Part shown: positions 26,820 to 64,000 of the stretch, in pieces | How positions within the stretch are numbered: the stretch's first letter is position 1 | How the letters are laid out: each line of letters opens with the position of its first letter | Source of the DNA: Ceratodon purpureus | Lineage: Eukaryota; Streptophyta; Bryopsida; Pseudoditrichales; Ditrichaceae | Direction of reading: 5' to 3' | DNA length: 64,000 nucleotides | Assembly (NCBI GenBank): GCA_014871385.1 | Contig: CM026426.1 | Span: forward strand, 103,247,235 to 103,311,234 | Made by a program: the position numbers and the translations under genes | Notes under the pieces: generated by a model | Database searches by the model: none | Seen by the model: the letters and a program-made list of their open reading frames with translations, nothing else | What the model was told of the DNA's origin: nothing

Positions 26820-27938
26820 TCATGGAAAAAAGGATTTGTCTTGCCTTATAAAATTAAAGCCAAAAACATACAAACTTGTCATATTAATGTAAGAGAAATC
26901 CATGTCGAGTTCTCTTTTAATTTTATTACCTAATGTCTTCAAATAAAAGAATATTATTTTTTATAAGCTTCTCATTACCTTTTAAGTTGTACCCCCCATC
27001 GTATACCTCCCTCGTCTATAGGCCCATGGGCCATAATTTCATTTCCAAAACAAATGGATTCTTCCTTCTAAACATTGAGATTATGTTTGCAAACCATAGT
27101 AGAGCACCAACAATTGAACGGCATAAATATCTCTTTCTAAAGTATACCCCAACATCAAGGCGGATCCCACAATCCCGATTACAAAATCTTTTGGACATTT
27201 TCCATAATTTCAGGGATATGTCTGAAATTTCTAATTCGGTATTGATTTTGTTTTTAGAGTATCTAGAAATAGAATTTTTTTTGTCAAGGTTGGACGAGAG
27301 GAGGAGGGGAGGGATGGCCGTCTCTAGAGAAAACGCAAGAGAAGAAGGAAGGCCATGCGAGACCCCGCCTCCAAGCGGACGGGGGGCCGTCCCCGCGGCC
27401 GTCGCCGGGGACGGCCTGCCGTCCCCACGGCCGTCCCCGGGGGTCGGCCCCCCGTCCCCGCCGACGGCCGACCCCTCAACTCCCCGAAATCTCCAAATTC
27501 CCGTAACTTCTTCAAAAATTGTCCAAATTGGACTTATGAGATGTTTTTTGGCATCTACAGGAAATGTAGATGCCAAAAAACACCTCATAAGCCCGATTTG
27601 GATACGTTTTGAAGAAGTTATGAAGATTTTAAGATTCGGGATTTTTTTTTAAAATTTGCGGCCGTCCCCGCGGCCGTCGCCGGGGACGGCCTGCCGTCCC
27701 CACGGCCGTCCCCGGGGGTCGGCCCCCCGTCCCCGCCGACGGCCGACCCCTCAACTCCCCGAAATCTCCAAATTCCCGTAACTTCTTCAAAACTTGTCCA
27801 AATTGGACTTATGAGATGTTTTTTGGCATCTACAGGAAATGTCGATGCCAAAAAACACCTCATAAGCCCGATTTGGAGACGGTTTGAAGAAGTTATGAAG
27901 ATTTTAAGATTCGGGATTGTTTTTTTTTAATTTGCGGC
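26820..27938 (-). repeat. Right arm of the 1.1-kb inverted repeat inside the hAT element
   Basis: Reverse complement of 24110-25229 with only scattered differences; for example, one arm has a GTAGATG/GTCGATG change in a hairpin near 27842. A transcript through both arms would form a double-stranded stem of about 1.1 kb. Confidence 0.9.
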
Positions 27939-45115: not shown

Positions 45116-46131
45116 GTTCCTTCCTGGTTAAACTGCTACTCTCTGCTGCTCCCTAAGCTCGTATCTAGCCAGCCTCTGTGCTGCTTGTCTTCTAGCCAAT
45201 TCTTCCTTGTCCCACTCTTAGTAGCCGCCTTCCATGATAGGTCAGTTATCGCTTATCCCTCTTGGTCCTTCATGCTGGTGGTCTTCTGGTCTGTCTGCTT
45301 CTCCAGTAAGTCCACTATGCCCCTCCACTTGAGCTCATGGATAGGTACTGTGGATCGTTGTCCTGGCCCTCCTCTAGTCCCTGTGTGCTAGTCCTTTGTA
45401 CTCCTGGTCTTTGTCAGTACATCCGTCTGCCACCCTTATCTGGTCCTTTGTGGATCTGTCAGTAGCTAGTGCTCCTACTTGGGTTGGTCCTAACTGCCTT
45501 TAGGTTGTCAAGTTCGTCCTTAGTCTAGAATTCTACGAGATTTTAAAGCAATACAGTTTTGTAGTCTTTTCCTTGAGGTCTGTCCTGGTCCCTCCAGTCT
45601 TCCCTTTATAGTTTTTCAGTGAATCTGGTCTAGGTTTACACTCTCGTTGTCCAGTTCGACTGTTTTACCTAAATCTAGTGATTTACAGGTCCATTTTTCT
45701 TTCCAAAGTCCTATCACTGGTCCCTAGGTTCCTTTTTTCATTTAATCCTGGTGTTCGTTTTTTACTGCTCCCTTTTTTACCTCAAATTTTCACTGGATCA
45801 TTTTACTGTCTACATATCTACGTAGACAGTAGATCTATGACTATTTTACTGACTGCTCCATTTTTTACTACTGGTCAAACATCCTACCTACTACTCCTTG
45901 CAATGCAACCTCAAATCAGTGGGAATCAGTGACTTATAAGGATCTGGCTGACTATCCTCCTTTTGCTGTAGAGTTGTCCTCAGCTCCTGGGACGCGCCTC
46001 TTCTCCAGCTGGCTTTTGACCGCTCCCGCCTAAGCTTGACTGCACTGGTCCTGTTGTCACTAATGAAACGCCTCCCTTGACTGCTTTGGAAACTCGTACT
46101 GGTCTAGATGTGGTCACTATAACCTTCACTA
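45116..46131. other. Ty3 5' leader side; no gene seen
   Basis: It continues the CTGGTC word pattern up to the insertion point of element B, with only fragmentary frames. It would contain the 5' untranslated region and possibly part of the 5' LTR. Confidence 0.45.
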
Positions 46132-46152
46132 GGGTGAAAGTACGTTAGACCC
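46132..46152 (+). repeat. Left 21-bp terminal inverted repeat of element B
   Basis: Begins GGGTGAAAGTACG and ends TTAGACCC. Exact inverse of 63154-63174. Confidence 0.92.
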
Positions 46153-46979
46153 TTGTACTTTTGTATGTCACAATGAAAAAATGTCAAAGTACTTGAATTT
46201 GTACTTTGAATAACTCAATGTTGGAGGTCTTTTTCTGTTGATTGGTTGTATTTCCTATGTCATACAATACTTAAGGAGGACTAATCTGATAAGAGTTATG
46301 AAAAATAAAGGAAGCACATATGTATAATTGATACTTTTCCACAACTGTAGTCGGATGTCACAAAGTACAAAAGTAATGCAAAAGTACAAAGTTCATGCAT
46401 TAATCAAAGTCGAAATAAAGCTGGCGCCTGTTAGAGAATACCTGATCTGGAGGCCACTAAAACGGGAAATGAATTGCGATGCTAGCACAATTAGAATTTT
46501 GTAGATCTAAAGAAGAAGTAACAGTTTTTTGCAGTGAAAAAGTTTTGCAAAAGTTGTTTAATTTTTAATTTTTCTGGCAGATTCTGGAAGAGCACAAACC
46601 AACCCAAGATGGCCAACCGTCGAATCAGCCAAAAAATTCTCTACCGGATACATCTTATTTTACTAGTGGCTGCGTGGAAGCTTGTATTTGTAGTGCTTAA
46701 AGTACTCTTTGTACTCCAACAGAAGTATGTGGCAGTCCACGTTGGCTGTCAGCGTTTTCATCGGACGCCGAGTCTCAAATAGTTGGTTACTGCGGGGCAT
46801 CATTATGCGTCGAGGCGGCGCTCCGGTCTCCATCACTCAGTCCTCTCATGAGCTAGTGGAGGGGGTTCTCTTTCGATCCTTCCTTCTACTGATTTTATTT
46901 TTTTGCCCACACTTGCGTGGTGTTTAGGTGGTTCAAAAGTTCAGATCGATTTTTTCTGTAAGTGTTCATTTTGCTTCTC
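46153..46979. other. Left non-coding region of element B
   Basis: AT-rich with many GTAC words (AAAGTACTTG, TTGTACTTTG, CAAAGTACAAAAG, AAAGTACTCTTTGTACTCC). Short frames near 46534-46927 are not recognised. It probably holds the transposase promoter and first exon or exons. Confidence 0.5.
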
Positions 46980-47101
46980 TCCACCTTCAAGACGCTGCAA
47001 AACTTTCCTTTGGAGGATCTACTCATGGGAAATACTGCATAGAGACGGCATGTACGAAAGGTGTAGCACAACGTGGTACCCGTATTCCTTCGGAAGGTAC
47101 T
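46980..47101 (+). pseudogene. Transposase gene of element B, 5' exon cut by a retroelement
   Basis: After a possible acceptor (CACCTTCAAG) the frame reads DAAKLSFGGSTHGKYCIE and GVAQRGTRIPSEG, then hits the insertion at the GTACT duplication. Across the retroelement it rejoins 53685 onward as EGTPACQP (then TAG). The protein part is not recognised by itself. Confidence 0.4.
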
Positions 47102-48049
47102 TAATTGTCACTAAATACCATCCAAAGTAAACCACTCCGTGTTCGTTCCCACGAAGACCTATAGTTTTCCTCCTTTTAGACCATAAGGGAAATCACCACC
47201 CGGTTCCAACCGTCTTCCATCCCACGGCCGGTTGTCTTGAACCGGTAGTTTTTGCCTCGTTCCTATTTTCCGGCTTTTTAGACTAGTGGCCGGTTCCCAC
47301 TGACCCGTCTATACTTTCAAGTGGCTGGATTTTCCACCGTCCCGAGACTTAAAGTGGCTGGACACCCCACTATACCTACCTACCACCCGGAGAGTGGAGT
47401 AATAATCCTTCCGTATGGCTAGAGACCGGCCCGGATAGCTACTCAGTACCGGTTACAGATACGGAAATCTTACTACAATGACGTCACCGCACGGTTGTAC
47501 AGTATCCTAACTACATCATCTCCCTTCTCGATTGGTTTGCAGTAGGTAATCTGACTTTTATCCTATCTACAGGAAGCGACCGGTCCGCTCTCGGATTCCG
47601 GTGTACACACGACTCTCCGTGTCCTTAAGACTACCAGCCTTGCTGCAGTACGTCTCTCCTTCCCTCCAGGCTCCTTCCGATATTGAAAACCGTCAACACT
47701 CGGCGCTTGACACCTTCCCAATCTCTCCGGGCGCTCTTCCAACCACCACACTGTTCAACTCTCCTCCAGAACACTATTGGAGACAATGGTACCAACAAAC
47801 CGTTACGATAACAGACCCGTCAGTCAGCCAGTCGATACAACAAATCCAAAGTATATTCTCAATTGCAACAACAAAACGGCGTACAAAACAAGGCCGCGGC
47901 CTTGGAAAAATGTCAAGGTTAAGTACTAATCCTAATGGGCCTATAGCAAACAAGTGGCCAACCAAGATCCAGAATTTCCGGATCTTGGATCCCGGGTATC
48001 CCAGATCGGTGGCCGCCTTCTATTCCTAGTTACTCCCGCTATCTATCCG
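47102..48049. other. Downstream non-coding region of the CCGGT retroelement
   Basis: Rich in ACCGGT (near 47240, 47433 and 47579). Frames at 47563-48029 on both strands have no domain. Confidence 0.45.
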
Positions 48050-48797
48050 GATTGACAGCCGGGTGCAATCGAGCCCCATCGTTAGTCGCTGCCATTTTAT
48101 CCGATCCTTATCCTGACCCCTACTCCTTATTCTTCTCGAACCTTGGGCTGTGCCGGGTTCCATCCGGTAGTTTGTTCTTCTGTACCTCCTTCTTCAGCTT
48201 CTTCAGTGAGGTACCGGCCCCCGGGGTATCTGGTACCGGATGGTCAATCGCCTTCCGGACTCGTCCTACCTGTGTCGCCGGTGAGGGAGACTGTGCAGCC
48301 ACCGGTGTTACACCAAGGTCCACCCGCATACGTTCCGGGGATGGAGATCCCTGTACCGGAGCAAAGCCAGCTCCCGGTGGTGGTCCCTAGTCCCCCTCCA
48401 AATGGATGTTCTCCGGGTCAACAACCTCAACTCCTTCCAGATTGGGCAGGTTGTGAAGACTGTCCAAGGTGTCCGGAAGAGGATCCGCCAATGGTTGTCC
48501 ATGCTCCGGTTGAACTGGCCGGATGGTCAACTGTACTGGAGAAGCTAAGGGTGGAACCTGTGCCAACTTCATGGTTGGTGCCGATGGTCTAGGCTCCTCT
48601 CGATCTGCCGGTGGCCCTGGTGGTCTTGACGGACCGTCCTTTCCATTGTAGAGGATGTCCACTAGGTTCCTCATCTTCAACCAAGTCTCCTTCATCACCT
48701 GCGTCCGGTCGTGCATGAATTTCACAATCAATGTCCGAGCCGGATCCGGTTGACGGGTCAGGAACGCCTGGTAGACGGCGCACTGATTTGCCACATT
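48050..48797 (-). pseudogene. Gag-like protein of the CCGGT retroelement, C-terminal part
   Basis: On the minus strand after the hAT insertion: NQCAVYQAFLTRQPDPARTL, DRTQVMKETWLKMRNLVDIL, then a Pro-rich disordered part (GPSRPPGPPADREEPRP) and, one frame on, VGRVRKAIDHPVPDTPG and a basic end (SLKKLKKEVQKNKLPDG). This matches the layout of the CGGAT relative: a folded part, then a disordered basic tail. A stop near 48388 and a frame change break it. Confidence 0.5.
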
Positions 48798-48995
48798 CAG
48801 GGTTGTCATAATAGACGGACGGGCCATAAAATTGTCGTGTAGTCACGTGACGAACGTGACGAACGGTTATCGGACGGACGCTTATCGGACGGGCTCCCCC
48901 GCGCGAGCAAAATTATTGTCCTCACAGTTTACTACTGTTTACCATGGGTGGCGCCCGTCGTCGCGTCTGCTCGCGCCCGTAGGCACGCGCGCAAG

Positions 48996-49019
48996 CAAAA
49001 AAAAAAAAAAAAAAAAAAT

Positions 49020-49051
<32 letters not shown>

Positions 49052-49068
49052 TTTTTTTTTTTTTTGTT
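48996..49068. repeat. Poly(A)-poly(T) hairpin-prone run
   Basis: About 22 A, then TG, then a long T run broken by single G. The two halves can pair. Frames of Phe/Lys only come from this run. Confidence 0.85.
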
Positions 49069-49074
49069 TTTGGT

Positions 49075-49310
49075 GCGCGCGCCAGAGTGCTTGCGCCCGT
49101 TCGCACGCGCCCGAGAGCTTGCGCCCGTTTGGACGCGCCCGAGAGCTTGCGCGAGACTTTCACAAAGAAATTGTTCATTTCATTTTGGTGATAGTTCATC
49201 CTTTGGGCATGTGCATGTAGGCATGCACATAAGAAAAAATAAAGCACCAAAATGAAATGAACAACTTCTTGGTGGAGGTTGGGTGCGTGCGTGTCGGTGT
49301 GCGTAGAAAA
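49075..49310. repeat. GC-rich subterminal repeats of the hAT element (left side)
   Basis: CGCGCCCGAGAGCTTGCGC occurs twice around 49108-49150, and TTCATTTCATTTTGGTG (49166-49190) is inverse to CACCAAAATGAAATGAACAA (about 49245-49264). The same motifs return in direct order at 50.8-51.3 kb. Confidence 0.75.
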
Positions 49311-49559
49311 AACTAGCACAAAAATGAAATGAAACCAAACTCCCAAAACTCATGTAGATATGTTCTTGTATGATTTGAATCCTGATTTTTGTACTATAAA
49401 AGTTATTCTTGTTAAATATAGTTTTATATTTTGTTCATGATTGCATTCATTAATTAAATATGTAAATAACTTATATTTCATGTTATTCTTGAATTTATTT
49501 ACCATGTTTCATTCAATTGCACATATAATAAGTTTACATAACAAATATAGGAAAAAAAA

Positions 49560-50510
49560 ATACATCATAGACTTGGAATGATAAAATAAATACATGATAG
49601 CCTAAGAATGGAAGAAAAAGAAAACAAGAAGATAGAATGGAATAGTAATGAACTTAAAAATAACAAGATGATAGAATACAAGACAATTAGAAAAATAAAT
49701 AAAAATAAAAGATAGAATGGGTGACTAATGGAAGAATAAACAAATAAATAAATACATGATAGACTAAGAATGGAAGAAAAAAAAAACAAGAAGATAGAAT
49801 GGAATAATAATGAACTTAAAAAGGACTAGATGATAAAACGGAAGACAATCGGAAAAATAAAATTAAAAAAAGATGGAATGGGTGACTAATGGAAGAATAA
49901 ATTAAAAAAATAGATACATCATCCACTAGAAATGGAAGAAAAAGAAAATAAGAAGATAGAACGGAATAATAATGAACTTAAAAAGAACAAGATGATAGAA
50001 TAGAAGACAATTGGAAAAATAAATTAAAATAAAAGATGGCATGGGCGACTAATCGAATAATAATTAAATAAATAAATACATCATCCTCTAGAAATGGAAG
50101 AAAAGGAAAACAAGAAGATAGAATGGAATTATAATGAAGTTAAAAGGGACGAGATGATAGAATGGAAGACAATTGGAAAATTTAATAAATAAAAAAAAAA
50201 AAGATAGAATGTGAAACCAATGGAAGAATAAATAAATAAATAAATACATGATAAACTAAGAATGGAAGAAAAGGAAAACAAGAAGATAGAATGGAATTAT
50301 AATGAAGTTAAAGGGATGAGATGATAGAATGGAAGACAATTGGAAATTTTAATATATAAAAATAAAAGATAGAATGTGAGACCAATGGAAGGCTAATAAA
50401 ATAAATAAATACATCATCCACTGGATATAGAAGAAAAGGAAAACGAGAAGATAGGATGGAAGAAGAATAGAAAAATCAACAAATAAAGGGATAGAATGGG
50501 AGAAATATAA
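49560..50510 (+). repeat. AT-rich tandem array, period about 160-165 bases, about five copies
   Basis: GATAGAATGGAATAATAATG-type units start near 49630, 49795, 49957, 50118 and 50287. Each continues with AATGGGTGACTAATGGAAGA and AAATACATCAT/GATAGACTAAGAATGG. No gene. Confidence 0.85.
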
Positions 50511-50799
50511 AAAAAAGTCATGGATAAAAAGCCATCAAGTGTGATGAACGACATAGTCAACAATGAATTGACGTTTCAATAGATTATGATTTAATCAACG
50601 CGAAGATAGTGGAAATGTACACAAAATGTTTTAGTTTAAACAAAATTAAACTAACTCCAAAATCTTCTACTAATCTAATTATCTATGCCTTTTGCTACTA
50701 TTTTTATTCTAATATCATATTACAAAAATATTCTCATCACTCATCGATCTCCATCACATCGCGTACTGAGCAATTGAGCTCCCTGGTCTAGCAACAATT

Positions 50800-51740
50800 A
50801 TTTGTGCATAAAATTGCAATGAACACCTTCTTGATGGAAGTCCGATGCAAGCTATCGGGCAAATGCGGACGGGCGCCAGTACTCGGGCGCGAGCATATCG
50901 GCGAGTGAAAGGAGAAAGTAGCACCAAAATGAAATGAACAACAACTTGGTGGAAGTCTGGCGCATGCCATCGGGCGAGTGCGGACGGGCGCGAGCATACA
51001 GGCCAGTGCAAAAAAAAATAAAAAAAAAATAAAAAAAAATATATATATATATTTTAAAAAAAACTTTGGCTGGTTTCTGTGTGCGCGTTTCCCAATACGC
51101 TCGCGCACGTCTACACGCGCCCGAGTGCGGACGGGCGCGAGCATACGGCGGAGTGCAAAAAAAAAAAAAAAAAAAAAAAAAATTATTTTTTAAAAATCCT
51201 TTGGCTGGTTTCTATGTGCGCATTTGCTGATATGCTTGCACCCGTCTGCGCGCGCCCGAATGCTCGAACTCAATGGTGGGAGTAGCAACACTATGAAATG
51301 AACAACAACTTGGTGGAAGTCCGGCGCTCGCCATCGGGCGAGCGCGGACGGGCGAGTGCAGACGGGCGCGAGCATACAGGCGAGTGCAAAAAAAAAAATT
51401 TTAAAAAAAAAAATAAAATAAAAAAAAATATTATTATTATTTTTTTTTTGAAAACTTTGGCTGGTTTCTGTGCGCGCGTTTCGTGATACGCTCGCGCCCG
51501 TCTGCGCGCGCCCGAATGCGGACGGGCGGGAGCATACGGGCGAATGCAGAAAAAAAAAAAAAAAAAAAAAATTGAAATTTTTTTGGTTGGTTTCTGTGTG
51601 CGCGTTTCCTGATACGCTCGCGCCCGTGTGCGCGTGCGTGAGTGCGGACGGGCGCGAGCATACGAGCGAGTGTGAAATTTTTATTTTATTTTATTTTTTT
51701 TATTTTTTTATTTTTTTTTTCTTCCCACCCGCCTGTATGC
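50800..51740 (+). repeat. GC-rich repeats of the hAT element (right side), 3-4 copies
   Basis: The block AACAACTTGGTGGAAGTC...GCGGACGGGCGCGAGCATAC followed by an A run, then TTTGGCTGGTTTCTGTGTGC and GATACGCTCGCGCCCGTCTG, recurs from about 50820, 50938, 51300 and in part from 51450 and 51590. Confidence 0.85.
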
Positions 51741-51926
51741 TCGCGCCCGAATGGACGCGCGTGAGCGCGAGCGCGCGCAAAAGTCAGCGCTAGGTAAATT
51801 CGTTTTACCCTTACCGTGAGTCAATGTCAATGCCCTTATGTGACGGACACGGGGGTGTGTCTTGTCACCATGACGGACGAACGGACTAACGGACGGTCGG
51901 TCTATTATGACAACCTTGGCCACATC

Positions 51927-53072
51927 GACCGGAAGGGCTAAGGTAGCCTTGACCTCTACAACCGACTGGATGGCATGGGTTGCCCGGTCACAGGCGTCCT
52001 GGAAGTCCCTTTGGGCATCATGCACCTAGTGTTGGAGTTTGATGATCCTCTCCCGGTACTGATCCATCTGGTCGACATGCTGGGCCTGCATGCTGGCCAG
52101 GTCCCGGTGTTTGTGAAGAACCGCAATGCATTCTGCCAACCGGTCAGTGCCCGTAAGTTGAATTACCTCCTTTACCAACTGGCTTTCGAGCTGCCTATTT
52201 TCCTGTAGGTACCGGACATACGCCGTCATCTGTTCCGACAGGTTGAACAAGTCTTGACACGGATCCTCGGTGTGGACCGGTGGCCCAATTTGTTTGAGGA
52301 CTTCCGTATTCAGATTACGCCTAGCCGGTGTGGGAGTCCGGGGAGAACCAGACGGCTGCCCCTTCTCCGGGCAGGGCCGGGGTTTCTTAGCCGGAGTGGG
52401 TGAAACCTCTATCACATCGTCCTCGTCCTTGTTCTCGGACATCTCCTCCCGTTCTGCGTACCGTTGGAGGCTTTTCAGTTCGTCATACTCCAAGATCTCC
52501 TTAGGGGTCAACAGCGCCTTGTGACGGTAAAGGTGAATAAGGAAAGACGGAAGGGAGGTGGCCTGCTTCTTGGTCTTCCTTAGGTTGGCTACCTGCCGGT
52601 CGACTATTGTTTTAATCATAAGACCCCAGTCCACTGAAATCTCACCGTCCATGGCTCCAACGAAGATGGATGCCCATTTGATGGTGATCCGTTTGGGCTT
52701 TTCCGGATGGAAAATTGGGTTCATAAACCCTATCACCTTCTTGGCTCTCGGGTCCTTGATGTCCTCCAGGTCCCACCCCTCCTTCTTGTCTCCGGTCGTC
52801 TTGATGTAGTTGTAGACGAAATCCCGGGACTCCGGAGCTGAAACTTCCCCATCCTTGTGGAAGCCATACGTATCCCTCTAGTCCTGCGCCGTCCACTGTT
52901 CCGGCTCCCCACGGATGGTATTTCGATTGTCGGGGTTTTTGACGAAGATCTCCTGCGCCGGAAGGGCCTGCCTCCACCCCCACGCCTTGTCCTGTAGTAA
53001 CTCACAGCCCATGACCTCTAAGGAATTCCGGAGGAGTTCCCACTCTTCGTCATCTACCGGCATCAACGACAT
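51927..53072 (-). pseudogene. Gag-like protein of the CCGGT retroelement, N-terminal and middle part
   Basis: From the right: MSLMPVDDEEWELLRNSLEV, ALPAQEIFVKNPDNRNTI, EQWTAQD, TAG, RDTYGFHKDGEVSAPESRDF; then 52736-52026 with PIFHPEKPKRITIKWASIFV, DWGLMIKTIVDRQVANLRKT, FLIHLYRHKALLTPKEILEY, a basic Pro-rich linker (SPTPAKKPRPCPEKGQPSG), and a helical segment (FNLSEQMTAYVRYLQENRQL, DLASMQAQHVDQMDQYRERI). A TAG follows and the frame goes on (DFQDACDRATHAIQSVVEV) to the hAT site. It aligns block by block with the protein of the CGGAT retroelement. I infer gag from position and the absence of other genes. Confidence 0.55.
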
Positions 53073-53679
53073 GACCCGTTATACCTTCAACAACTGTCCC
53101 TCTTCGACCGGCTCTTCCCCCTTTCTAACCATACTGCTTAAACGTCCTCATGGTCACTCCAGTAACACCTGCACGCACGATCCTCACCACAATCCCTCGA
53201 CTAACGGAAACACTTCCGTCTCACCGTCTCTCTTCTACCGTCCTAACCCTAAATGCAAACTACGCCGAGGAGCACAAGGATCCGCCGCTTCACAAAACGA
53301 CAAAAGAAAGGAGGAGCACGGTTGCCCTTCCTCCTTTTATACCCTCACTCACCTCAACCCGTTCGTAGCTCATCATGGCGGACGGTCGTAGCCCTTCATC
53401 ATTGGACGGTCGCGGCCGGCGGCGCTTTAATTGTCGCAGCCATCTTTTCCTTGTGAATCACACCCTCCGGCTGTCGCCCTAAGTGTGCTTGGTCAGGGTT
53501 TCGTCGCATAGACGGTGCTCCTTCTTATCCGGCTCCGTACGACCGGATTTGAACCGGTTGCCCTTCCGGTTCTCTTATTCCTTCAACCGTCTTAAACGGT
53601 TGTTACCTATATCTACTTAATACTTCCGTGTTTCTAACCCAGAATTTTTAAATTTTATCATTTTTTTCTACCGGAGTTA
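53073..53679. other. Promoter/leader side of the CCGGT retroelement
   Basis: The 5' region on the minus strand, rich in ACCGG/CCGGT (for example GGATTTGAACCGGTTGCCCT near 53542). Small mirrored frames only. Confidence 0.4.
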
Positions 53680-53684
53680 GTACT

Positions 53685-55950
53685 CCAGCGTGCCAACCGT
53701 AGAAATCACTTTCCACAAGAGGGATTGAGTCGTCCTGGTCCAGCTGAACGTGCTGCTGATGTCGAGGCCCTTGAGGCTCAAAGAGTTTAACCGCTAGTGT
53801 AGCTCGAGAGAGAAAAAGCAGGCAGAGAGTACGTGACCGGGAGAGGGTAGCAGAGTCTCTAGTTCTAGCTCATAACACGGCAGAGCAAGCTGCAGCTCAG
53901 TCTTTTACAGTGAGAGAGAATAGTAGGATTGCGTTGAGAGTCTGTCAAGGTATTGTTGAAGAGTTGAAACAGTGTCCTAATCTAGCTGGGCGGAGAGATG
54001 TCATGGAAAGAGTCCTTCGTCATTCTACAGTTTCTTCCTTTTTGCCTGATTGTTATCACCATCCACAAGAAGCACGAGCTAGGGATGCTTTCATTGATAA
54101 CTTTAAGAATGAGCTTTGTTTAGTGAAGGTTGCAAATTCTCATGACTACTTAGCTCAGAAATCTGCTCTTTTTGAGATGTTGCCGTCAGTTCTGGCTGTA
54201 ATGTCCGAGTGGGTGCCTTGTCTAGACTTTTGGACACAACTAAAGAGAGTATTAGCATTGCTTTGAGAAGGAGGTTGCCAGATGAGGATTCTCACGGGTT
54301 TATTCCGAAGTTGCGTTTGTCTCGGCAGCCGAGGGCGGGTATTTCTGATTATGTCAAAGAGTGCATTCTTCACTGGTGGGAGATACAGACCAAAGTTTCA
54401 CCAAACAAGGACATTGTTAGACATAGAATAGGGCGCAAACTCTGGCTGGAACCTCATCCTACTCACTATCGCTGTGAAACGCAAGTAAGTTTACCTATAC
54501 AATCTATCCATCTCCGTTTTAAAACTTGGCAATGTGTACTACGCAGAGTGCTATAGTTGGTGATGTAATCACTAGAATGTACTCTTCCTCCACCTTTGTC
54601 ATCAAAGAGTACATTATGTTGCAGTATTTTGTGCTGTGTAGTTTCTGGACTTTATCTAGGAGTAGAGTTGTATTCTCCTGGCTGTGGGACAATCAAATTC
54701 GTACTTGTGATTGTGCATCTAGTATTTAGCGTACAGCCGTTTACGTGATCAAGTTTTGATAGTTCCGAGATGTACTCACAGTGTGCTAGTCCTACTGAAT
54801 GTAACAAGTTTGAGTACACCTTGTATCCTTTTCGAACTATGTATCATGGCATGCTAATTTCATATGTCGTCCAGAGTACCATTTGTATTACACTTCTACT
54901 TCAAAGTAAATCAAGTAATTTAGAAGTACTTTAATTAGTACTAGGATGTGGTTATCTTGTAGAATATATAGAAGATCCATGTCTTCTCCATGTACTTTGT
55001 TAGTCGGTATCCGTCGCTCACTCGGGGGTGCTTGATGCGGTGGAATTTTTTCGAAACAGCTCACGGGAAGGGGGAGTGGGATGGTGCAGGTGCAGTCGTG
55101 AAAAGGGCGCTGAGAGCGGAACAAATACAAAACCCCCTAAGGCCGCTTCAGATTGCTGGGCACGTTGTCGATTTTTTGAAGGAAAATTACTATGAGCGTG
55201 TTTCCAGCACATACGCTCAGTCAACAACTAACCCAATTTCTCGCATCTTCTGGAACATAGGAGAATTTGAAGTAGATCACAGAGACAATAGTGTTAAATG
55301 TCGTACTTTTCCTGGCTCTAAGAATTTGCACTCTGTCATGGGATTCTCTGTGTCTGACCCTACTCTTCTTAGAACTCGTGAATTATCTTGCTTTTGCATC
55401 CCTTGTGTCGATGGTGATTGTAATAACTGTGAGAACTCCTCTCATGTGCTAGAGTGGAAGGTACAGCGTCTGCAGCCGCTTAGTACCGGCGTTGTAGCAA
55501 GCCAGCTGGATTTGCTTGATGACGACGCCAATTGGATTCATGATGGAACTTCTGTGGAGATAGGTGACTTGGTGTGCGTGGGTGACAATTTCATGATCCC
55601 GGCAAAGAGTGACAACAAACATGGAGTGGATTATTACATACTGCAATGTCAACGTACGAAGTTTGTATTGCAGGAGGGTTTGTCATGTCCATGGGGCGGA
55701 GTTTTTTCTGCCCGAGATAAGGTGATCCGAGCTAAGTATTATAAAAAAATATGGAAGAAGAGATAAAACATACGTATTTTGTGACCGGGGGGTTGATGCA
55801 CATGTAGATGCTCATCTAGTTAGAGCTTGCAAGTTCCCAATGGTTCTTCAGCCCATAGAGTTAAAGGTAGTCCCGTCTATAAGATCACAGCTGAGTCAAA
55901 GCGGATCTGTGAGGATGCGTTGAGGGACTGGTGGGCATTTAACAAAGAAT
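53685..55950 (+). pseudogene. Transposase gene of element B, main part (catalytic centre lost)
   Basis: The frame continues GLSRPGPAERAADVEALEAQ, stops at TAA and TAG codons, then a charged stretch and, at 53910-54266, ENSRIALRVCQGIVEELKQC and LVKVANSHDYLAQKSALFEM. After a shift come ESISIALRRRLPDED and YVKECILHWWEIQTKVSPNK up to a donor-like CAA|GTAAGT at 54483. The next coding block (about 55030-55766) starts RWNFFETAHGKGEWDGAGAV, a motif known from uncharacterised transposon proteins of animals and algae, then ELSCFCIPCVDGDCNNC, and a possible BAH-like end (VEIGDLVCVGDNFM, DYYILQCQRTKFVLQ). It closes with KRICEDALRDWWAFNKE after one more frame change. The part between 54484 and 55000 has no catalytic core, so it is probably deleted. 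Confidence 0.55.
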
Positions 55951-56144
55951 AGAAACCCACATTGAAGCATAGTAAATGTATTTCCTGAAGCTTAATACAA
56001 ACACTGAATGCAATTGCCGTAAGATCAACCGACAGTTTAATATGTCCAATATGTCCATTGTGTACAATATTCAAAATATGTACAATATGTCTTTTAGAAA
56101 TGTACTATATGTATACATTGTGTACAGTAAGTGCTCAGTGTACA

Positions 56145-57260
56145 TTAGTTAGAACAAGTACTGGTTACTTCTACTTTTCCCCTGCATACAGAACTCTCAC
56201 ACTTGCATTCAAAGTACGGCAGGTCAAGGTCCTCTCTACTGAAGTCAGTTCCATAATCCCATGTCAGTTCCATAATCCCATGTCAGTTCCTCCAATGGCT
56301 GAATTTTCCGCTTCGTAAAGAAAGCTAGCTGGTAAAAGCTCCTGTCTTACCTCCCAACTAGGACTGGAACATCGACTAGGTTCGCATCTTCGCACCTCTA
56401 GATACAGAAAATAAAAGGTTAGGAGTGTGGAAATGCACGTATAAAACGGCTGAGACTAGGAAGAGCAATTCCAAGTGGGACCCACCGGTGGTTGAGGAAT
56501 CTGGCCACATTTCCGAACCGGGTTGCATCCAGGCATAAAGCAGAGTTGTCGTCCAGCACTCGTTCGGCAGCCCAATCGGCATCAATTTGTAAGCTGTAAG
56601 TCGAGCCACCTTTCAGACTGCGGTTCCTATACATCTGTTCAGCGTGTGTCAAGATTTCTCCTGTCATCTCAAAGACAAACGCACCTCTAGGGATCGTACT
56701 GCTGCCCGGATACCCCATCCCATGTGGGCTGTACGGAAAACTTCTACTGCGTATCTCATCCCCTGCTGTACAACATGGTTCCCACAATCGCTACGACATC
56801 CGCACTTAGCATTACACTCAGAAATGAAGGCGCCCGACTTGTGAACCCCACATGTGACAACACTCTCAATACGGCGTAGCTTAGTAGAATAGCACTTTAG
56901 AGTATTTGTACAGTCGTAGGCCTCATGTATGCGTCGTCGGAGAAAAGAATCCGTGAGGAATCCGCCTGCCCTGTATAGAAATCTACCGCCGTTGGCACTT
57001 GTTGCACATTGACATGCACACTTGGCGGTCCTGATGGGCATGAACAGTAGGACCCCACACAGAGACTGGACAGCGTAGGATTCACATGTGCAAGGTCGTA
57101 TACAATGCTCTTGTTGATGTACTGAAAACTAGGCAAAGGAAAATCAGATTTCACAAGAGGGATTGGGGTCTTCTCTAGTCCCCTAGACAAATCTTCAATC
57201 ATATAACTGGACTGGCCTTGGTAGGTTTCCCATCTCAACAGTCCACATTCCCACAAATGT
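56145..57260 (-). pseudogene. SUVR1/2/4-like histone H3K9 methyltransferase (pre-SET, SET, post-SET)
   Basis: From the right: DLSRGLEKTPIPLVKSDFPL and FQYINKSIVYDLAHVNPTLS (SUVR signature before pre-SET). After a frame change come the pre-SET Cys cluster (KCACQCATSANGGRFLYRAG; ECNAKCGCRSDCGNHVVQQG), then GWGIRA. One frame on is the SET domain: PRGAFVFEMTGEILTHAEQM, LDATRFGNVARFLNHR. An intron (56396-56485) falls between the Arg and CEDANLVDVPVLVG. The last exon has FFTKRKIQPLEELTWDYG and post-SET FECKCESSVCRGK, with TAA at 56145-56147. SAM- and catalysis-related NH and Y motifs are all present. A 19-bp tandem duplication (56252-56289) shifts the frame just after ELTWDYG, so this copy is broken. 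It lies inside element B between the transposase and RING genes. The family methylates H3K9 and supports transposon silencing in plants. Confidence 0.85.
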
Positions 57261-57398
57261 TATGCGACAATGTGCATTCATTGAAGTGAACCCCGCAAAC
57301 GAGGCTACAATACAATGTTGGGCCAAAGTTAACTGCATGGCATAAACGCACACACACAGACTACCAAAATTGACATAGAATTTCTATCTTCAGCGCTC

Positions 57399-58450
57399 CT
57401 ACTTCCGGCCCTTGGACGCCGCCCCACCTACCTTACGTTTCTTCTCCCCTTTCTTCTTTCTTGAGCTCCCGGGAGAGGCCTCATCACCGCCATCTACAGC
57501 CTCTGGCTGCTCCTTCGCACGAGCCCTTGTGATCCTTTCTGTCGGAGTGTGGGTTTTCGGTTCTACAAATTCCCCACCAGCAAGAGCTTCGTGAAAAAGC
57601 TGAGTCACGCTCTTATCCACGGAGTGTAGATTTTCAAGGGCAACCTCTTGGCAAGGAGGATTCTGCTGACTGGGGACAGGTTGATTCTCTTTCTTTCCGC
57701 GACTCTCTACTCCCCTCTGGATATCACTTGTAATGGGGAAAGGAGTCAGTAATGGAAAGTAACTTAAGAAAACAGAGTACGCCTAATAAATCTATTAAGA
57801 GTCGGCATACTAAAAAACTGTGAAGAAGTCTTATCTGTGGTTTCCAATGCGGCACTTTCAGCATTTGTCAAGTTGTGTTTCCTCCCGGGTAGACATCGGG
57901 ACTCGGGAACAGGTTATGGCGGTGGAGATGTAACCTCCATGTGCATGTCCACCATCTGTAGGGGAGCAACGACCTCATCTCTGTCCTCCATATGTATTAC
58001 TCAGATTGGAGATTCCCACTTCTCCTTCCCCCCGGGTTGCTCTTCATTACGCTCCTCTACGATTACGGGACTGATGAAGTCTGGGTGGTACGACTTCAAA
58101 ACCGGCAACGTACCCTCCGAAGATTCTACAGCCGCATCCTCCTCACCCTTTTGAGTTGACGTGGTTGTCCCAGAACTGGAGGGGAGCCTAGGCATCTTCA
58201 GGTCACCGTCTTCATCACTTGAGGACTCATCTTCAGAGTCCAGCTCTGGCTCTGAAGGTCGTTTTCTGCCAGCACCTTCTCCCTCTAAGCACTCAAAGAC
58301 GGTTGGTTCATCCCTTTTCCGCTTCGCTCCAGTCGCATTAATCTTCGACAACGTCCTAGAAGGGGCGTGTTGCAACGGTGTCGCCAACACTCTGTCAAGT
58401 GGCACAGCGGGTTGAGGATCGTAAACCTGACTCGACCTCTCTTCTAGCAA
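57399..58450 (-). CDS. Acidic/basic disordered protein, or N-terminal part of the SUVR-like gene
   Basis: Two minus-strand frames. The first, 58450-58001, has RKRDEPTVFECLEGEGAGRK, an acidic serine stretch (EPELDSEDESSSDEDGDLK) and VLKSYHPDFISPVIVEERNE. The second, 57620-57399, has SVTQLFHEALAGGEFVEPK, PTERITRARAKEQ and a lysine-rich end (SRKKKGEKKRKVGG) closed by TAG. The region between is probably an intron or shifted coding. The nuclear-type composition suits a regulatory N-terminus, and SUVR proteins have long disordered N-terminal parts. The stop at 57399 would need an intron (or decay) for a fusion, so a separate gene is also possible. Confidence 0.45.
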
Positions 58451-59262
58451 GATAGAAAGCGATGCAGCAGGCGCATGGAAGGAGAAGCTCGAAGACTCTA
58501 CGCCAAGAACGCACTAAAAATAAAATTTAGTTTAATTAAAAAGTACTAACTCTATAGAAATGGATCAGCAAAAGGACTATCTAGTACCCTGAACGGGACT
58601 CTAATGTATTTTATGCACTGACAATATACCTAGAATACTAACAGTATGCTAAGTGTTATACACCAGGTACTTAAAATGCACAAAAGTAGAGTGAGTATAA
58701 GAATTCTGTACATAGGCTATGAATTTAGTACAAGGGCACAGTGGCTCTATCACTGCATTCGCAAGGAACCATACATTTAGGACTATAACAAGGAAGCCGA
58801 TTAAAGTATATACATAGTTTTAGTACACTAGAAATTCAGCTCCTTTAGACAATGTACCCTTACTGACCACAATGTACTGAATATACTATACACGAGGAAA
58901 GAAGTGCACGAGCAAGTGGACTGTATCCAAGAAGAGTACATTCACAAAGCATGGCCGCAACTTGAAGGTTTAATTCAAGACGTAAGTACATCTACACTCT
59001 GTTAAGTGCACAATAAGTTTGCAAATTTGAAAACTTAGTACTTTAATTATACAATATACACGGATATCACAAATTTTGACCCGAGTGTACTGAGCAAATC
59101 ATTCGCATATACATTAAAACTGAACGTACCATTCGACGGCATCATCTCCTTTGCACAACCTGCCCTCGCCTGGAGAACTCTGCTCTCCTCCTCTACCACG
59201 CCTAGCTGCCTCCCTCGGTCACGCATTTCTGGAGATGAATGTCCCCACCCAAAGCTATTGTA
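58451..59262. other. GTAC-rich spacer between minus-strand genes of element B
   Basis: No coding content. GTAC words are very dense (AAAAGTACTAAC, GGTACTTAAAATG, TTTTAGTACACTAG, AATGTACTGAATA, GTAAGTACATC, TTAGTACTTTAATT). Promoter and untranslated regions probably lie here. Confidence 0.6.
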
Positions 59263-60848
59263 CTAGTCCGGATGGGGAATTGCTCCGCAGCCCTTGGCAA
59301 CGCAAAATTGACAATTGACGAACACCACAGAGGCACAGAAAGGATGGTAAAGGTGTTGACAACAAGATAAAACTACATCATTACAAGGGAAGGGAAAAAG
59401 ACAAAGGCAGCAGGCTGTAATTTCGACTGCAGCAAGAGCGCCTTGACTCCCAACGATGGCCGCATCACTGGACTCCGAGTACACCATAGGGCGCGGCTAG
59501 ATGGACGCATTGCTCTTCCCTCGCTTCAACAGGAAGTTCTTCGCTGACAACGCATCAAATAATTTCTGTCTCCCCTCTAGCATTGCTGCCATCCCCTCAA
59601 GCTCCAATTCTGTGGCTTTTTGTTCATCCAAGTCTACACGCATCTGAGCCGCTTCCTCCTCAAGCTGCTCCTGAATCCCTTCCATCTTGATTTTCTCCCG
59701 AATTTAGCTTAATCCCTCTGCCTCAAGCACGTCGATGCGGACACTTTTCTCTTGAATCTGATGCTTGCAACTATCCACTAAGCAGGTTCTTTGCTTGCAC
59801 TTCGACCTCGCAGCCTCCGTCCTCTCCAAACACTGGACCTTCTTCACAGCCATTGCCTTTAACTCCAAGTGCAACACTCTAATCAACCCCTCTAACTCCT
59901 TCAGCCTCTCATGCACTAATCCCTTCCTCCAGCCCACTAATCCCTCACTACGATCCTGTACACTACCCTGCACGCACACCTAGAACCCATTCCACTCTCA
60001 AAATTTCCATCACAATCCCCTGTCTCTCCAAGGCGGGACCCTAAACCCCCTTCTCCTCGCTCTGTCTTCGTAGGCAGCGGCTTCCTCTTGCTGTCAAATG
60101 TCCCGCCCCCACGCTCCCCCTCCGTTCCAGGCTCCACTTTGATACTGCGCCACTCATTTCCCCGCACATCCACGGGCCCCTTCCCTTCAAAACTCTTCCT
60201 CAACACCAGCAGTTTGGAGAGGTCTTGCTTGTACCTTGAGCGTTGGCGTTTGTTTGTCTTTGCCCCGAAGGCACACCAATCCACAAAACCAGCCCCTTCC
60301 TCGTATTCGAAAGTGACCCCCTCCGCGAACTTAACCTTCACATTATACGGGATTTCTCCAGGTCCATGCTGATACAGGATAGGGTGGAGGAACTTCACCC
60401 GCGCCACGACCTCAGGAACCTTGCAATAAAGCCAACAAAATCCCGCGCGCCCTGCATTTCCATAACGACCTCCGAAGAGCTTCTTCACAGCCTCGGCGCG
60501 TACCGTGTTCTTCCGGAACCGATGAGGGTTGTCACCTTCCAGGGGGACGTTGTACTCCCTGTGGAAATCCGCTCTACCAAGTACGCGAGGGGGCGCCTTC
60601 AGATGCCGGATTTCGGCTTCGACATCCTCTACCGACTGGATTTTCTTCACAGATCTGCCAACCTTCTTCTGCTTAGATGCCGGAACAGCCTCCTCGTTGC
60701 GGACCGCGTCATGGTTTCCCCCTTCCTCATCGCTGCACGCCTCCGTCACGGACTCCTCCCTCCTGCTCGATACGCCGCTCTTTGATTGCACTGGCCTTCT
60801 CCGCCGATTCCCACCCGACGCTGTCCGCGCTTCCAAACTCTCCTCCAT
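59263..60848 (-). pseudogene. Coiled-coil RING-finger protein of element B (frameshifted)
   Basis: It starts with ATG at 60848. The N-terminus is basic/acidic (RTASGGNRRRRPVQSK). A conserved region follows: GRADFHREYNVPLEGDNPHR, LFGGRYGNAGRAGFCWLYCK, HGPGEIPYNVKVKFAEGV, FVDWCAFGAKTNKRQRSRY. After a frame change near 59950-59980 comes a coiled coil (RLKELEGLIRVLHLELKAMA, EQLEEEAAQMRVDLDEQKAT), interrupted by stops at 59704 and 59497. The end is a RING-H2 finger: C-x2-C (CLCL), then C-Q-H-L-Y-H-P-F-C, then C-Q-F-C. The order N-domain, coiled coil, RING is the same as in element A (16112-18102), with a similar length. RING proteins commonly act as E3 ubiquitin ligases, so a role in removing a host factor is conceivable but unproven. 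Confidence 0.7.
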
Positions 60849-61219
60849 GGTGACCCTAAACCCTTAGAAAAAACTGATGGCTATGGCATACCCCTCGATG
60901 ACAATCCCAGCCCCGTAACCCAACGCTCTCTCAAACCCAAGACCCTACCAACCTCGCTATTGCTAAACCCCTCCTTCAATGTCCAGGACGGGCGGAGCAA
61001 TGCACGGCAACAATAACTCATTCAAAACGAAGAATCTCTAACCCCCGCCAAACTGAGGTGCGAGACGACGACCGGTGGTCACCGGTTTCCTAGTAAAGCT
61101 GCGGATGCACCAATTGGTGACCACCGGTTGCTAGTAGAATTGACACCTAACTCACCAACTGAAATGAATAACTCAGTCACTAATGCTTCACGCCTGGGTT
61201 CTAGGAAATCTACATACGG
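60849..61219. other. Upstream region of the RING gene of element B
   Basis: It includes a pair of related segments, GGTCACCGGTTTCCTAGTA and GACCACCGGTTGCTAGTA (about 61078-61135), that also form an inverted arrangement (CCGGTGGTCACCGG). These may be the end of a further nested insertion that covers the AT-rich array. No gene. Confidence 0.4.
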
Positions 61220-62570
61220 GTCTGTTTTTATGAAAAAATATTAGGAATTTAAATGAAATGGACAGCTCACATGGTGGGTGAGTGATAGACTTAGGAAGAT
61301 TGAAAAAGAAAATAAAAAATAAAATAAATAAAAAATAAATAAAATAAATAAAATATATATATATATATATATTTATATATTGATATATAAAATAAAATAA
61401 AACAAGAATGAATTCATGAAGAAAAATAAAATGGAAAACTTAATCCATTAACTTGATCATAAATGATTCAAAAAAAATAAAAATAAATAAATAAAATTAA
61501 AAATTAAAAAATAAATAAATAAAAAATGAAGTGATGAAGAAGAAAAAAAAGAAAATTTATCAATCGAGTAGAACTATAAAAACAAACAAAACAAGACAAT
61601 AAAATAAAATGAATGCAAATGAAGTGGAAAACTAAGAAGGTGATTCAATGAGAGATTTAGGAAGTCTATGGTGAAAGATGTCTACGAAAGGGTTGAACAA
61701 TAAAAAACAACTAAATAAATAAATAAAGATAAGATCCAATAAAAAAGAATGAATGAATAGATGAAGATGATTAAACTTAAAATTGAATCAATATATTAGA
61801 ACTTTAAAAATAAACCCAAAATAATGCAAAAAATTAAAATAAATGCAAATTAAGTGGAGAATTCCAAAGGTGAATATATGACATAAATAGAAAGATAGTA
61901 AAGAATGTCTACAAAAGGGTTGAACAATAAAAGACAATTAAATAAACAAATAAATATAGGACCGAATAAAAGTACGAATGAATGAATAAAGAGAAAAAAA
62001 AATAAAAATTGATCAATTGTGTAGAACTTTAAAAAATAACCAAAAATAAAAAATAAAAAATGCAAATGAAGTAGAAGCTCACAAGGTGAGTAGATGATAG
62101 ATTTAGGGAGTTGGTAAAACAAGTCTATAAAAGGATTGAACAATCAAATAGAATTTAAAAAAGATCTAGGACCCAATAGAAAAAATGAATGAATGGATGA
62201 AGAAGGAAAAACTAAAAATTGAATCAGTGGATTAGGACTATTCAAATAAATAATAAAATTAAAATAAATAATAATGAAATAAAATAAATGGAATTGAAGT
62301 AGAGAATTCATAAGGTGAATAAATGTTTTTTTTTGGTGGATGGGATAGGATGTCTAAAGAAGGATTGAACAATAAAGGAAAATTAAATAAATAGAGAGGA
62401 TAAGGGTAGGAATAAAAAAAAAAATGATGAACATTTGGATGTAGGACAAATAATGAAAAATAAATTAATATATTGATACTTATAAAAAAATAAAAATAAA
62501 ATAAAGATAAAATGAATGCAAATTAAATGGAGAACTCACATGGTGAGTAAATGATAGATTTAATTAAGGG
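61220..62570 (+). repeat. AT-rich tandem array, period about 225-235 bases, 4-6 degenerate copies
   Basis: Landmarks recur: GGGTTGAACAATAAAA near 61691, 61919 and in changed form near 62134 and 62364; AAATGAATGCAAATGAAGTGG near 61610 and relatives; CTCACAAGGTGAGTAGATGA near 62087 and relatives. Long A/T runs and a (TA)n stretch (61354-61382) are included. Probably an insertion separate from element B's own sequence, as GTAC words are absent here. Confidence 0.8.
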
Positions 62571-63153
62571 TTAAGATGTCCTATATACCTACGTTTAATG
62601 TCCCTAATACCATGTCTTGTATCACAAATGTATCCTATGGACAATCATTGAACAAGTATTTCAATCACCCTACACCTTATATTTACAAGTTCAATAGGGA
62701 CACCAAAATTCAAATTATATACAAATTTTCATCACAATAAGCACACCATGTATCCGGTTTCATCAAATATTCATCCAAAATAAGCATAAATTCTACTTAA
62801 CCATAGCTCAAGGCACATAAAAAAATAAAGTTACCAAGTTCTACATCTCAAATCCGTGGCTGCAAGGAAGATCCACATCACAACATTGTTCACATTGGAT
62901 GCTGCAGCCTACTTCAAAGCAGCCAGCTTGTCACCGTCATCTTTTCCCCAGGAATCCTGCACACTATGCTCGCAGCCACTCTGTCCACGTGACGCCGACG
63001 TCCTCCCATTGGTGAAGCCAAATTGGACGATGCTCGTGCCATCAACCATATCCCTTTATCCAACGGCCATTGGTGACTCGGACTTAGTACTCGTGGCAGA
63101 ATACAGTACTTCGGAGTACAACTGGTACAACAGGTTTTTGCCAAAAGTGACAT
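62571..63153. other. Right non-coding region of element B
   Basis: A 101-codon frame at 62856-63161 runs into the terminal repeat and has no domain; I do not call it a gene. GTAC words return close to the end (ACAGTACTTCGGAGTACAAC, GGTACAAC). Confidence 0.45.
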
Positions 63154-63174
63154 GGGTCTAACGTACTTTCACCC
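63154..63174 (-). repeat. Right 21-bp terminal inverted repeat of element B
   Basis: Begins GGGTCTAACGTACT and ends TTTCACCC. Exact inverse of 46132-46152. Confidence 0.92.
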
Positions 63175-64000
63175 ACTGTCACAGATCTGGTCACTGTGAC
63201 TACCACTGTCACAGATCTGGTCACTAGAACTGACAGATCTGCTCCTCTCAAACCCTGGATCGCCACTGTACATGTCACCCCTGAAATAGTACAGATCTCG
63301 TACTGTTCTGGTGTGTGCAGCTTGAGCCACATGGTTTGAACTTAAGCAAGGTCGCCAATGTGAAAGGAGTTTTTTTTTCTTAGTCCTTCAAAAATGAATA
63401 CTATTCTAAATATCTCTGAAATCTTGCGAAATTTTTTGTACTCCCCATGAAATTGCCCTAAATCCTGGCCCTAGATTTGAAACTGCCAATTTAGATCTAT
63501 TCAAATCGTGTTGGTATTTTCCTAGATCCAATACATTTTTCTACTCTCTTTGGTCTGATCTGCAATATCCACTCATTTAAACACCACAGCTACAAGACCC
63601 ACCAGGCAAATTGAATAACCTGGTCCCTCAACCACTCATTTCTGCAATTCCATCCACTGTAGATTATACACATTTTTAGTTATTGTTTGGAAAACAACCT
63701 AGGTGCTGAAGTTATATCCGTTTACCAGTTGTAATTAGCCGTACCAAAGAAGAATTCCAACTACAAATTGGAACACAATTGTATGGTATACTAACAGTGT
63801 CCTTACAAAGAACATGTGAACAAAAAAATACGAACACATTATGGACTACCCAACTGTGACGAAAAAGCGTGACTAGGAATGTCTTCTAGATTGTAACTCG
63901 AACTGAAAATTATCCAATGACAATTTCTTTACCTCAGATCAATCATTACTGTTTAGAAAACACTAGGTAATAAGGGAGTATATAAACACGAGAAAATCTG
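63175..64000 (-). other. Probable continuation of the Ty3 element (5' leader/LTR side) right of element B
   Basis: CTGGTC words resume at once: CACAGATCTGGTCACTGTGA and, 30 bases later, CACAGATCTGGTCACTAGAA, a short direct repeat. The left side of element B ends with GTGGTCACTATAACC. This suits one interrupted sequence. No gene; the last 500 bases are AT-rich without features I recognise. Confidence 0.45.

Follow-up and report, generated by a model that had tools for sequence, protein, structure and literature searches.

The moss Ceratodon purpureus carries an autonomous DNA transposon family, recognised by its terminal inverted repeats, a target duplication of fixed length and a transposase, whose copies also contain a SET-domain gene of the plant SUVR type and a coiled-coil RING-like gene. 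One copy lies at 46132-63174 of the 64,000-nucleotide stretch analysed here (the window; C6:103247235-103311234 in a 362.5-Mb assembly in which C6 measures 110.5 Mb). The SET gene may well have been captured by the transposon, kept by selection and aimed, via short AGTAC words, at the element's own copies, where its product would write methylation of the histone H3 lysine 9 (H3K9) type. In the usual view, H3K9 methylation acts on transposons and is not something that they themselves carry; to judge from sequence comparison, a plant DNA transposon lineage here appears to keep, under selection, an H3K9-type methyltransferase gene.

The window element is bounded by perfect 21-bp terminal inverted repeats (GGGTGAAAGTACGTTAGACCC), placed exactly where the earlier note had read them, around the relic of a transposase, a SET gene of the SUVR type and a coiled-coil RING gene. 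Searches with relatives (tblastn) recover all three genes and order them as a transposase in two parts (53716-54551 and 54987-55949, plus strand), SET (57202-56163, minus strand) and the RING-like gene (60848-59050, minus strand). When as many as six mismatches are allowed, one further match to the 21-bp end turns up in the window, and it has six. The features of the element are as follows.

46128-46131 and 63175-63178, no strand: probable 4-bp target duplication flanking the ends, one mismatch (ACTA / ACTG)
46132-46152, plus: left terminal inverted repeat, 21 bp, an exact 21-mer also found elsewhere in the genome
46132-47061, no strand: left terminal non-coding part, GTAC-rich, 96.8% identical to positions 1-931 of copy C11B
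47062-53714, no strand: nested insertion of 6,653 bp, foreign to the original element by alignment with C11B, flanked by an imperfect 8-bp duplication
53716-54485, plus: N-terminal exon of the transposase, its reading frame broken near 53787 and 54176 (relative P0002, 83-90%)
54978-54987, plus: internal deletion junction, about 1.0 kb of C11B (2189-3209) gone by alignment with C11B
54987-55949, plus: transposase C-terminal exon, stop at 55764-55766 (P0003 residues 268-586, 70%; P0001, 71%)
56163-57259, minus: SUVR-type gene with pre-SET/SET/post-SET regions and three changes of frame (PF00856, 8.1e-6; P0053, 88-95%)
57402-57782, minus: probable upstream SET exon without a Pfam match above cut-off (open reading frame of C11B matched at 71-82% in copies C7a and C8)
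58004-58513, minus: probable second RING exon, or a separate gene (open reading frame of C11B matched at 65-69% in C7a and C8)
58514-59129, minus: intron-like GTAC-rich stretch (GTAC 13 times, 3.7 expected)
59130-60848, minus: coiled-coil RING-like gene, one frameshift and stops (P0158, 92-94%)
61298-62562, no strand: A/T-rich tandem-repeat stretch, common to copy C11B
63154-63174, minus: right terminal inverted repeat, 21 bp, perfect, an exact 21-mer also found elsewhere in the genome

The window copy is dead. Its SET and RING genes are frameshifted, two catalytic aspartates of its transposase are gone and a 6.65-kb insert splits the element; that all three genes are broken was overlooked in the earlier note. 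The codons of the transposase residues D174 and D257 lie in the deleted stretch (2189-3209 of C11B), and the third catalytic-type residue (HGKGE) is retained in the C-terminal exon. Relative to its homologues, one SET frame change coincides with a tandem duplication of 19 bp near 56270. Alignment with C11B, which has no interruption, covers 46132-47061 and picks up again at 53715, and each copy of the 8-bp duplication around the insert shows one difference from the uninterrupted sequence. The insert itself contains a 162-bp tandem array, has no clear terminal inverted repeat and includes an open frame (52029-52877, 283 codons) with no Pfam match above cut-off.

Independent copies in the genome, mostly 11.2-15.2 kb long, share one order of the three genes. 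The exact 21-mer occurs in the 362.5-Mb genome five times forward and five times in reverse (backwards control, 0), and eight of these ten ends form four inward-facing pairs: the window element, C6A (C6 74.756-74.768 Mb, 11,387 bp), C11B (C11 15.414-15.425 Mb, 11,361 bp) and a copy on C2. The earlier note had proposed this search, and all four exact pairs enclose transposase, SET and RING sequence; all three genes likewise adjoin each of the two unpaired exact ends (C5; C6 94.25 Mb). The C2 copy (C2:7843942-7941153) spans 97 kb and is apparently swollen by later insertions; it has perfect 21-bp ends and ACCC/ACCC flanks, and its SET lies between RING and transposase, which sit close to opposite ends. 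C6A and the copy at C6 94.25 Mb share 15 identical bases outside one end (AGGAGGTCAAAGACA); one of the two may stem from duplication, or both may sit in the same repeat.

Ten loci were fetched, C5 via its end and nine via SET matches. Both ends were located for C5, C7a, C8, C2a, C7c and C6c, which measure 11.2 to 15.2 kb; the search for ends was negative for C7b, C10a, C10b and C12. A degenerate end pattern matches the genome 98 times forward and 108 times in reverse (control, 0). Among the first 100 of the 206 listed degenerate ends there are 20 inward-facing pairs less than 50 kb apart, 10 with a scored SET; one of the other 10 was read, and its 12,529 bp contain all three genes. Chance inverted repeats are rejected by the zero counts of the genome controls. 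Transposase, SET and RING sequence is present in all 11 copies read at both ends, most of which were picked by SET or exact ends and are therefore not a random sample. The SET gene is multi-copy, and no end pair without it was found where the DNA was read.

The element has GGGTGNNAGTAYNYTAGACC-like termini and a target duplication of 4 bp. Exact duplications flank 8 of the 11 copies (CTTA, AACT, TCAG, AACA, CCTC, TATT, ACCC and GGGT); the window pair has its one mismatch, and none was found for C6A and C8. Copies C11B and C5 have separate target duplications and a synonymous divergence (dS) of 0.006 in SET, which together indicate that the family moved recently.

The gene set also keeps a fixed arrangement. 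Scoring covered 145 of 720 candidate loci for SET, 73 of 1810 for RING and 74 of 1511 for the transposase, so that locus counts are lower bounds. In 59 of the 74 scored transposase rows a SET converges on the transposase within 6 kb, at distances of 456-1443 bp (0.09 such rows expected); no scored SET within 6 kb of a scored transposase is arranged otherwise. Both partners accompany 33 SET rows, and at least one partner stands in the expected arrangement beside 85 of the 145 scored, none in another. RING lies 5' on the same strand in 28 of the 37 SET rows at 74% similarity or more (23 of these at 1.84-1.98 kb) and, with 73 scored RING rows, in 31 of the 108 less similar ones. For eight of the 73 RING rows the 30 kb downstream contain no scored SET; two of the eight are the window's own RING. 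Plant DNA transposons often carry gene fragments, and these genes could be host fragments taken up by chance and functionless; six of the 15 transposase rows for which no SET was scored were read, and of these two have no SET within ~2 kb and four have it in place. The single clade to which the SETs belong, and their fixed position and order, argue against such passengers.

That clade emerges from the SET-domain trees, a check suggested together with the genome search. In the window, the Pfam SET match (PF00856) stands above cut-off and Pre-SET below it; in relative P0063, PF00856 and Pre-SET (PF05033) are both above cut-off, and relative P0062 keeps the catalytic motifs in an alignment with EHMT2. 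Scans of window pieces lying upstream of SET detected no WIYLD domain. A first tree (24 element-type SETs, 20 SUVR, 5 others and the window) unites the 24 and the window in one clade, with a Shimodaira-Hasegawa-like approximate likelihood ratio test (SH-aLRT) support of 90. A second, with fewer rows and better-filled columns (16 element-type SETs, 15 SUVR, 3 others and the window), gives an element-type clade of 17 (support 100/100) that is sister (95/82) to four SUVRs, from Ceratodon, Sphagnum and two other sequences, and that falls on the SUVR side against SETDB2. An alternative tree with all SUVRs together, apart from the element clade, is not rejected by the approximately unbiased test (p-AU 0.214). 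"Element-type" is a label for short SET proteins: P0053, identical to C5 and C11B, was seen to lie in an element, and P0059, P0062 and a P0096-like sequence probably do, which does not extend to each row of the trees. Pairing of relatives from the same source used 52 transposase, 31 SET and 23 RING rows, SET rows of named plants and animals being excluded, and yielded three pairs; P0042/P0158 (2787 bp) was dropped as too short for both genes and two were kept. Scans of the viral and genome contig collections yielded no relative.

The same data bear on whether the SET gene is simply a host SUVR gene, or part of a segmental duplication, that chance inverted repeats happen to enclose. The host SUVR lies on C1, where its exons match M758_1G137900 (P0075) of Ceratodon purpureus at 89-100%; C1 is the sole scored locus at this level, and other matches to the host SUVR reach 41-56% (72 scored of 1025 candidates). 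The SET loci are scattered and are accompanied by inverted repeats, 4-bp target duplications and the transposase and RING genes. No point was found in favour of the host-gene explanation, which is refuted and retains a negligible probability. The view that SET belongs to the element and not to the host thus stands, since independent copies hold the three genes in one order and the element-type clade lies apart from the host SUVR. On the simplest reading of the sequences, SET would have been captured once, before the families in this genome diverged.

Substitution ratios indicate that the SET gene is maintained by selection. Ratios of nonsynonymous to synonymous divergence (dN/dS) were computed with a simple Nei-Gojobori script, which gives no confidence limits, for 12 loci picked by SET or end matches; pairs with saturated dS have no ratio. 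Between the family-1 lineages (C11B/C5/C6A, C7a, C7b and C8), dN/dS is 0.14-0.23 for SET, 0.07-0.11 for RING and 0.04-0.10 for the transposase (N-terminal exon, 0.09-0.16). Within the close group C11B/C5/C6A, where changes are few, it is 0-0.35 for SET, 0.31-0.87 for RING and 0.28-0.39 for the transposase, and in other families SET gives 0.30-0.40, with one close pair at 0.68. A functionless passenger should show a SET dN/dS near 1, which was not found: with a single exception, the more diverged pairs that gave a ratio fall at 0.14-0.40. Chance capture is therefore largely refuted and very improbable. Between C10a and C10b, dS ranges tenfold, from 0.096 (SET) to 0.966 (RING), a spread that suggests exchange between elements.

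The transposase is of the DDE type, with a predicted integrase-like or RNase H-like fold and the residues D174, D257 and E297. With its structure model, Foldseek alone gave no convincing match, and a second look led to integrases and Mos1; profile searches of the PDB were without a match and no Pfam family scored above cut-off. Three superfamilies were set apart by description, that is, by motif, termini and duplication length. Membership in Lanisha/CMCT is rejected, as D257 and E297 of P0003 are 40 residues apart, with no CxxC and a single H (by eye), and the termini are GGG..CCC; the definition of CMCT includes, as PMC12730594 gives it, CA..TG termini in most cases. Zisupton/Kyakuja (KDZ) is rejected for its defined duplication of 7 or 8 bp, against 4 bp here (from the same account, PMC12730594), and HarbingerS on duplication length alone, 4 bp against 0, 2 or 3 bp (PMC12730594).

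The RING-like cysteine pattern of the third gene reaches no Pfam cut-off in the window or in relatives; the best RING-model match per protein is 0.0052-0.071 in four of five relatives, absent in P0158 and 0.76 in the window, all below cut-off. Profile search of the PDB gave weak matches only (E 0.034 or worse), and the structure model is poor, with a predicted local distance difference test score (pLDDT) of 55.6; a fold search with it returned no match at E 0.001 or better.

The earlier note had GTAC-type words filling the spacers and introns of the element throughout; GTAC is strongly enriched overall (z 8.9; z 4.2 at 46132-48000), but there is no enrichment at 48001-53700 (GTAC z 1.2, AGTAC/GTACT z 1.7), and at 61001-63174 it is weak (z 1.6 and 3.6). 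The gap from ~48 kb to ~53.7 kb is explained by the 6,653-bp nested insert. In three diverged families (3, 2 and 1 copies), the ratio of AGTAC to the number expected from dinucleotides is 5.0, 3.7 and 4.2 in non-coding DNA, defined as DNA unmatched by relatives and hence including unmatched exons, against 2.3, 1.1 and 1.9 in their coding DNA and 1.45 in 80 kb of background; GTAC-containing words top the 6-mer list in each family. In the VANDAL21 transposon, as PMC5735166 describes it, the motif to which the VANC protein binds, YAGTATTAY, lies in introns, spacers and ends. The likeness of the AGTAC layout to that of VANDAL21 is the main reason for proposing that an element protein reads the words and brings the SET protein.

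The proposed mechanism would begin with the capture of a SUVR-type SET that selection then kept beside the coiled-coil RING-like gene. The transposase or the RING protein may bind the AGTAC words crowding the introns, spacers and ends of the element, and the SET protein, if enzymatically active, would thereby be directed to the element's own copies and deposit H3K9-type methylation there. Such targeting might benefit the element by restraining or hiding it while sparing the haploid host harm. The earlier note had suggested that such an enzyme could serve to silence rival elements, the element itself or host genes, or could act as a decoy. A rather unlikely alternative inverts the effect: the SET/RING pair would counter host silencing in the manner of VANC, for example through a RING protein that binds AGTAC and removes a host silencing factor, or a SET protein that competes with the host SUVR. 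VANDAL21 has the same layout, a crowded short motif beside an element-encoded chromatin factor (PMC5735166, in the part concerning the motif), a RING protein could eliminate a host factor, and transposition has been recent. Against this, the purifying selection on SET and the catalytic motifs kept in P0062 suggest methylation over pure competition.

Chromosome C6 holds 92 of the 145 scored SET loci and only 30% of the assembly. Ceratodon purpureus is described as having a 360-Mb genome with U and V sex chromosomes of more than 100 Mb each (PMC8000587, genome description), and C6 is presumably its sex chromosome. The density on C6 could mean that SET serves transposition itself, marking or reading chromatin so that insertion goes into heterochromatin, or licensing excision. 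Poor removal on a sex chromosome explains the C6 excess equally well, however, and family-1 SET stretches are more often broken there (8 of 27 free of stops on C6 against 7 of 10 elsewhere by hand count; Fisher p 0.056), which leaves a role in target choice improbable. A bolder version of the self-directed methylation proposal is doubtful in its full extent: a complete self-addressing heterochromatin system, in which AGTAC is the address, a RING/coiled-coil protein reads it and a SUVR-type protein writes the H3K9 mark, would have been kept through family diversification at high copy number. Mobile SETs, which outnumber the host SUVR by at least ~85:1 (145:1 if partnerless scored loci count), might then set much of the H3K9 methylation of the moss, notably on the giant sex chromosome.

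Elsewhere in the window, an inverted repeat (24127-25232 / 26819-27924) has arms of 1,106 bp that are 99% complementary and spaced 1,586 bp apart. Open reading frames at 16112-17839 and 11524-13214 resemble genes of another element, and a RING-like cysteine pattern, seen by eye, ends the first open-reading-frame pair of this set; these frames match no Pfam family above cut-off and, at 1e-5, none of the proteins collected up to that point.

Mosses are haploid-dominant, and gene-targetable laboratory strains exist. Moss thus allows a direct test of whether a transposon profits from the silencing of itself, of its rivals or of its host, and mobile SET genes are relevant both to counts of histone methyltransferases and to the reading of H3K9 methylation maps in moss genomes.

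Among known systems, SETMAR joins a SET domain to a transposase, as one domesticated primate fusion gene and not a mobile family, and VANC is not known to be a SET protein. The earlier note knew of no described plant-lineage DNA transposon with this gene set, and no moss or plant precedent for a SET-carrying one was found in the open literature, a scope outside which most subscription papers and Repbase Reports lie; such transposons are, however, on record in oomycetes. In Phytophthora, HarbingerS and MuDR DNA transposons carry genes for a SET histone methyltransferase (Kojima and Jurka 2014, as cited in PMC12730594). These resemble the moss elements as DNA transposons with a SET histone methyltransferase gene of their own but, compared by description only, belong to another host kingdom, and the moss elements add the SUVR type of plants, the RING-like gene and the AGTAC words; the canonical Harbinger duplication is 3 bp and that of its relatives 0, 2 or 3 bp, against 4 bp in moss (PMC12730594). 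VANDAL21 shares a plant host and a short word crowded in introns, spacers and ends beside an element-encoded chromatin regulator, yet VANC causes loss of DNA methylation, the motif is YAGTATTAY and not AGTAC, and VANDALs are MuDR-type (as characterised in PMC5735166). Fungal TET/JBP DNA transposons (KDZ, Plavaka and others) likewise carry an epigenetic-mark enzyme in several lineages, a DNA dioxygenase in place of a histone methyltransferase, with 8-bp duplications in Zisupton and 7-bp ones in Kyakuja (PMC12730594). The Klebsormidium Dnmt3 Gypsy element has a streptophyte host and a captured silencing-type methyltransferase under purifying selection (Ka/Ks <0.2), but is a long terminal repeat retrotransposon with a DNA methyltransferase fused into Pol (as outlined in PMC5890265). 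Arabidopsis SUVR4, an H3K9 methyltransferase of the same SET subfamily, is a host gene with an N-terminal ubiquitin-binding WIYLD domain, the domain not found in the scanned window pieces (PMC7218100, for SUVR4). SET-carrying DNA transposons are thus already known, and what is new here is the plant host, the SUVR type, the RING-like partner, the AGTAC crowding, the transposase type and the 4-bp duplications.

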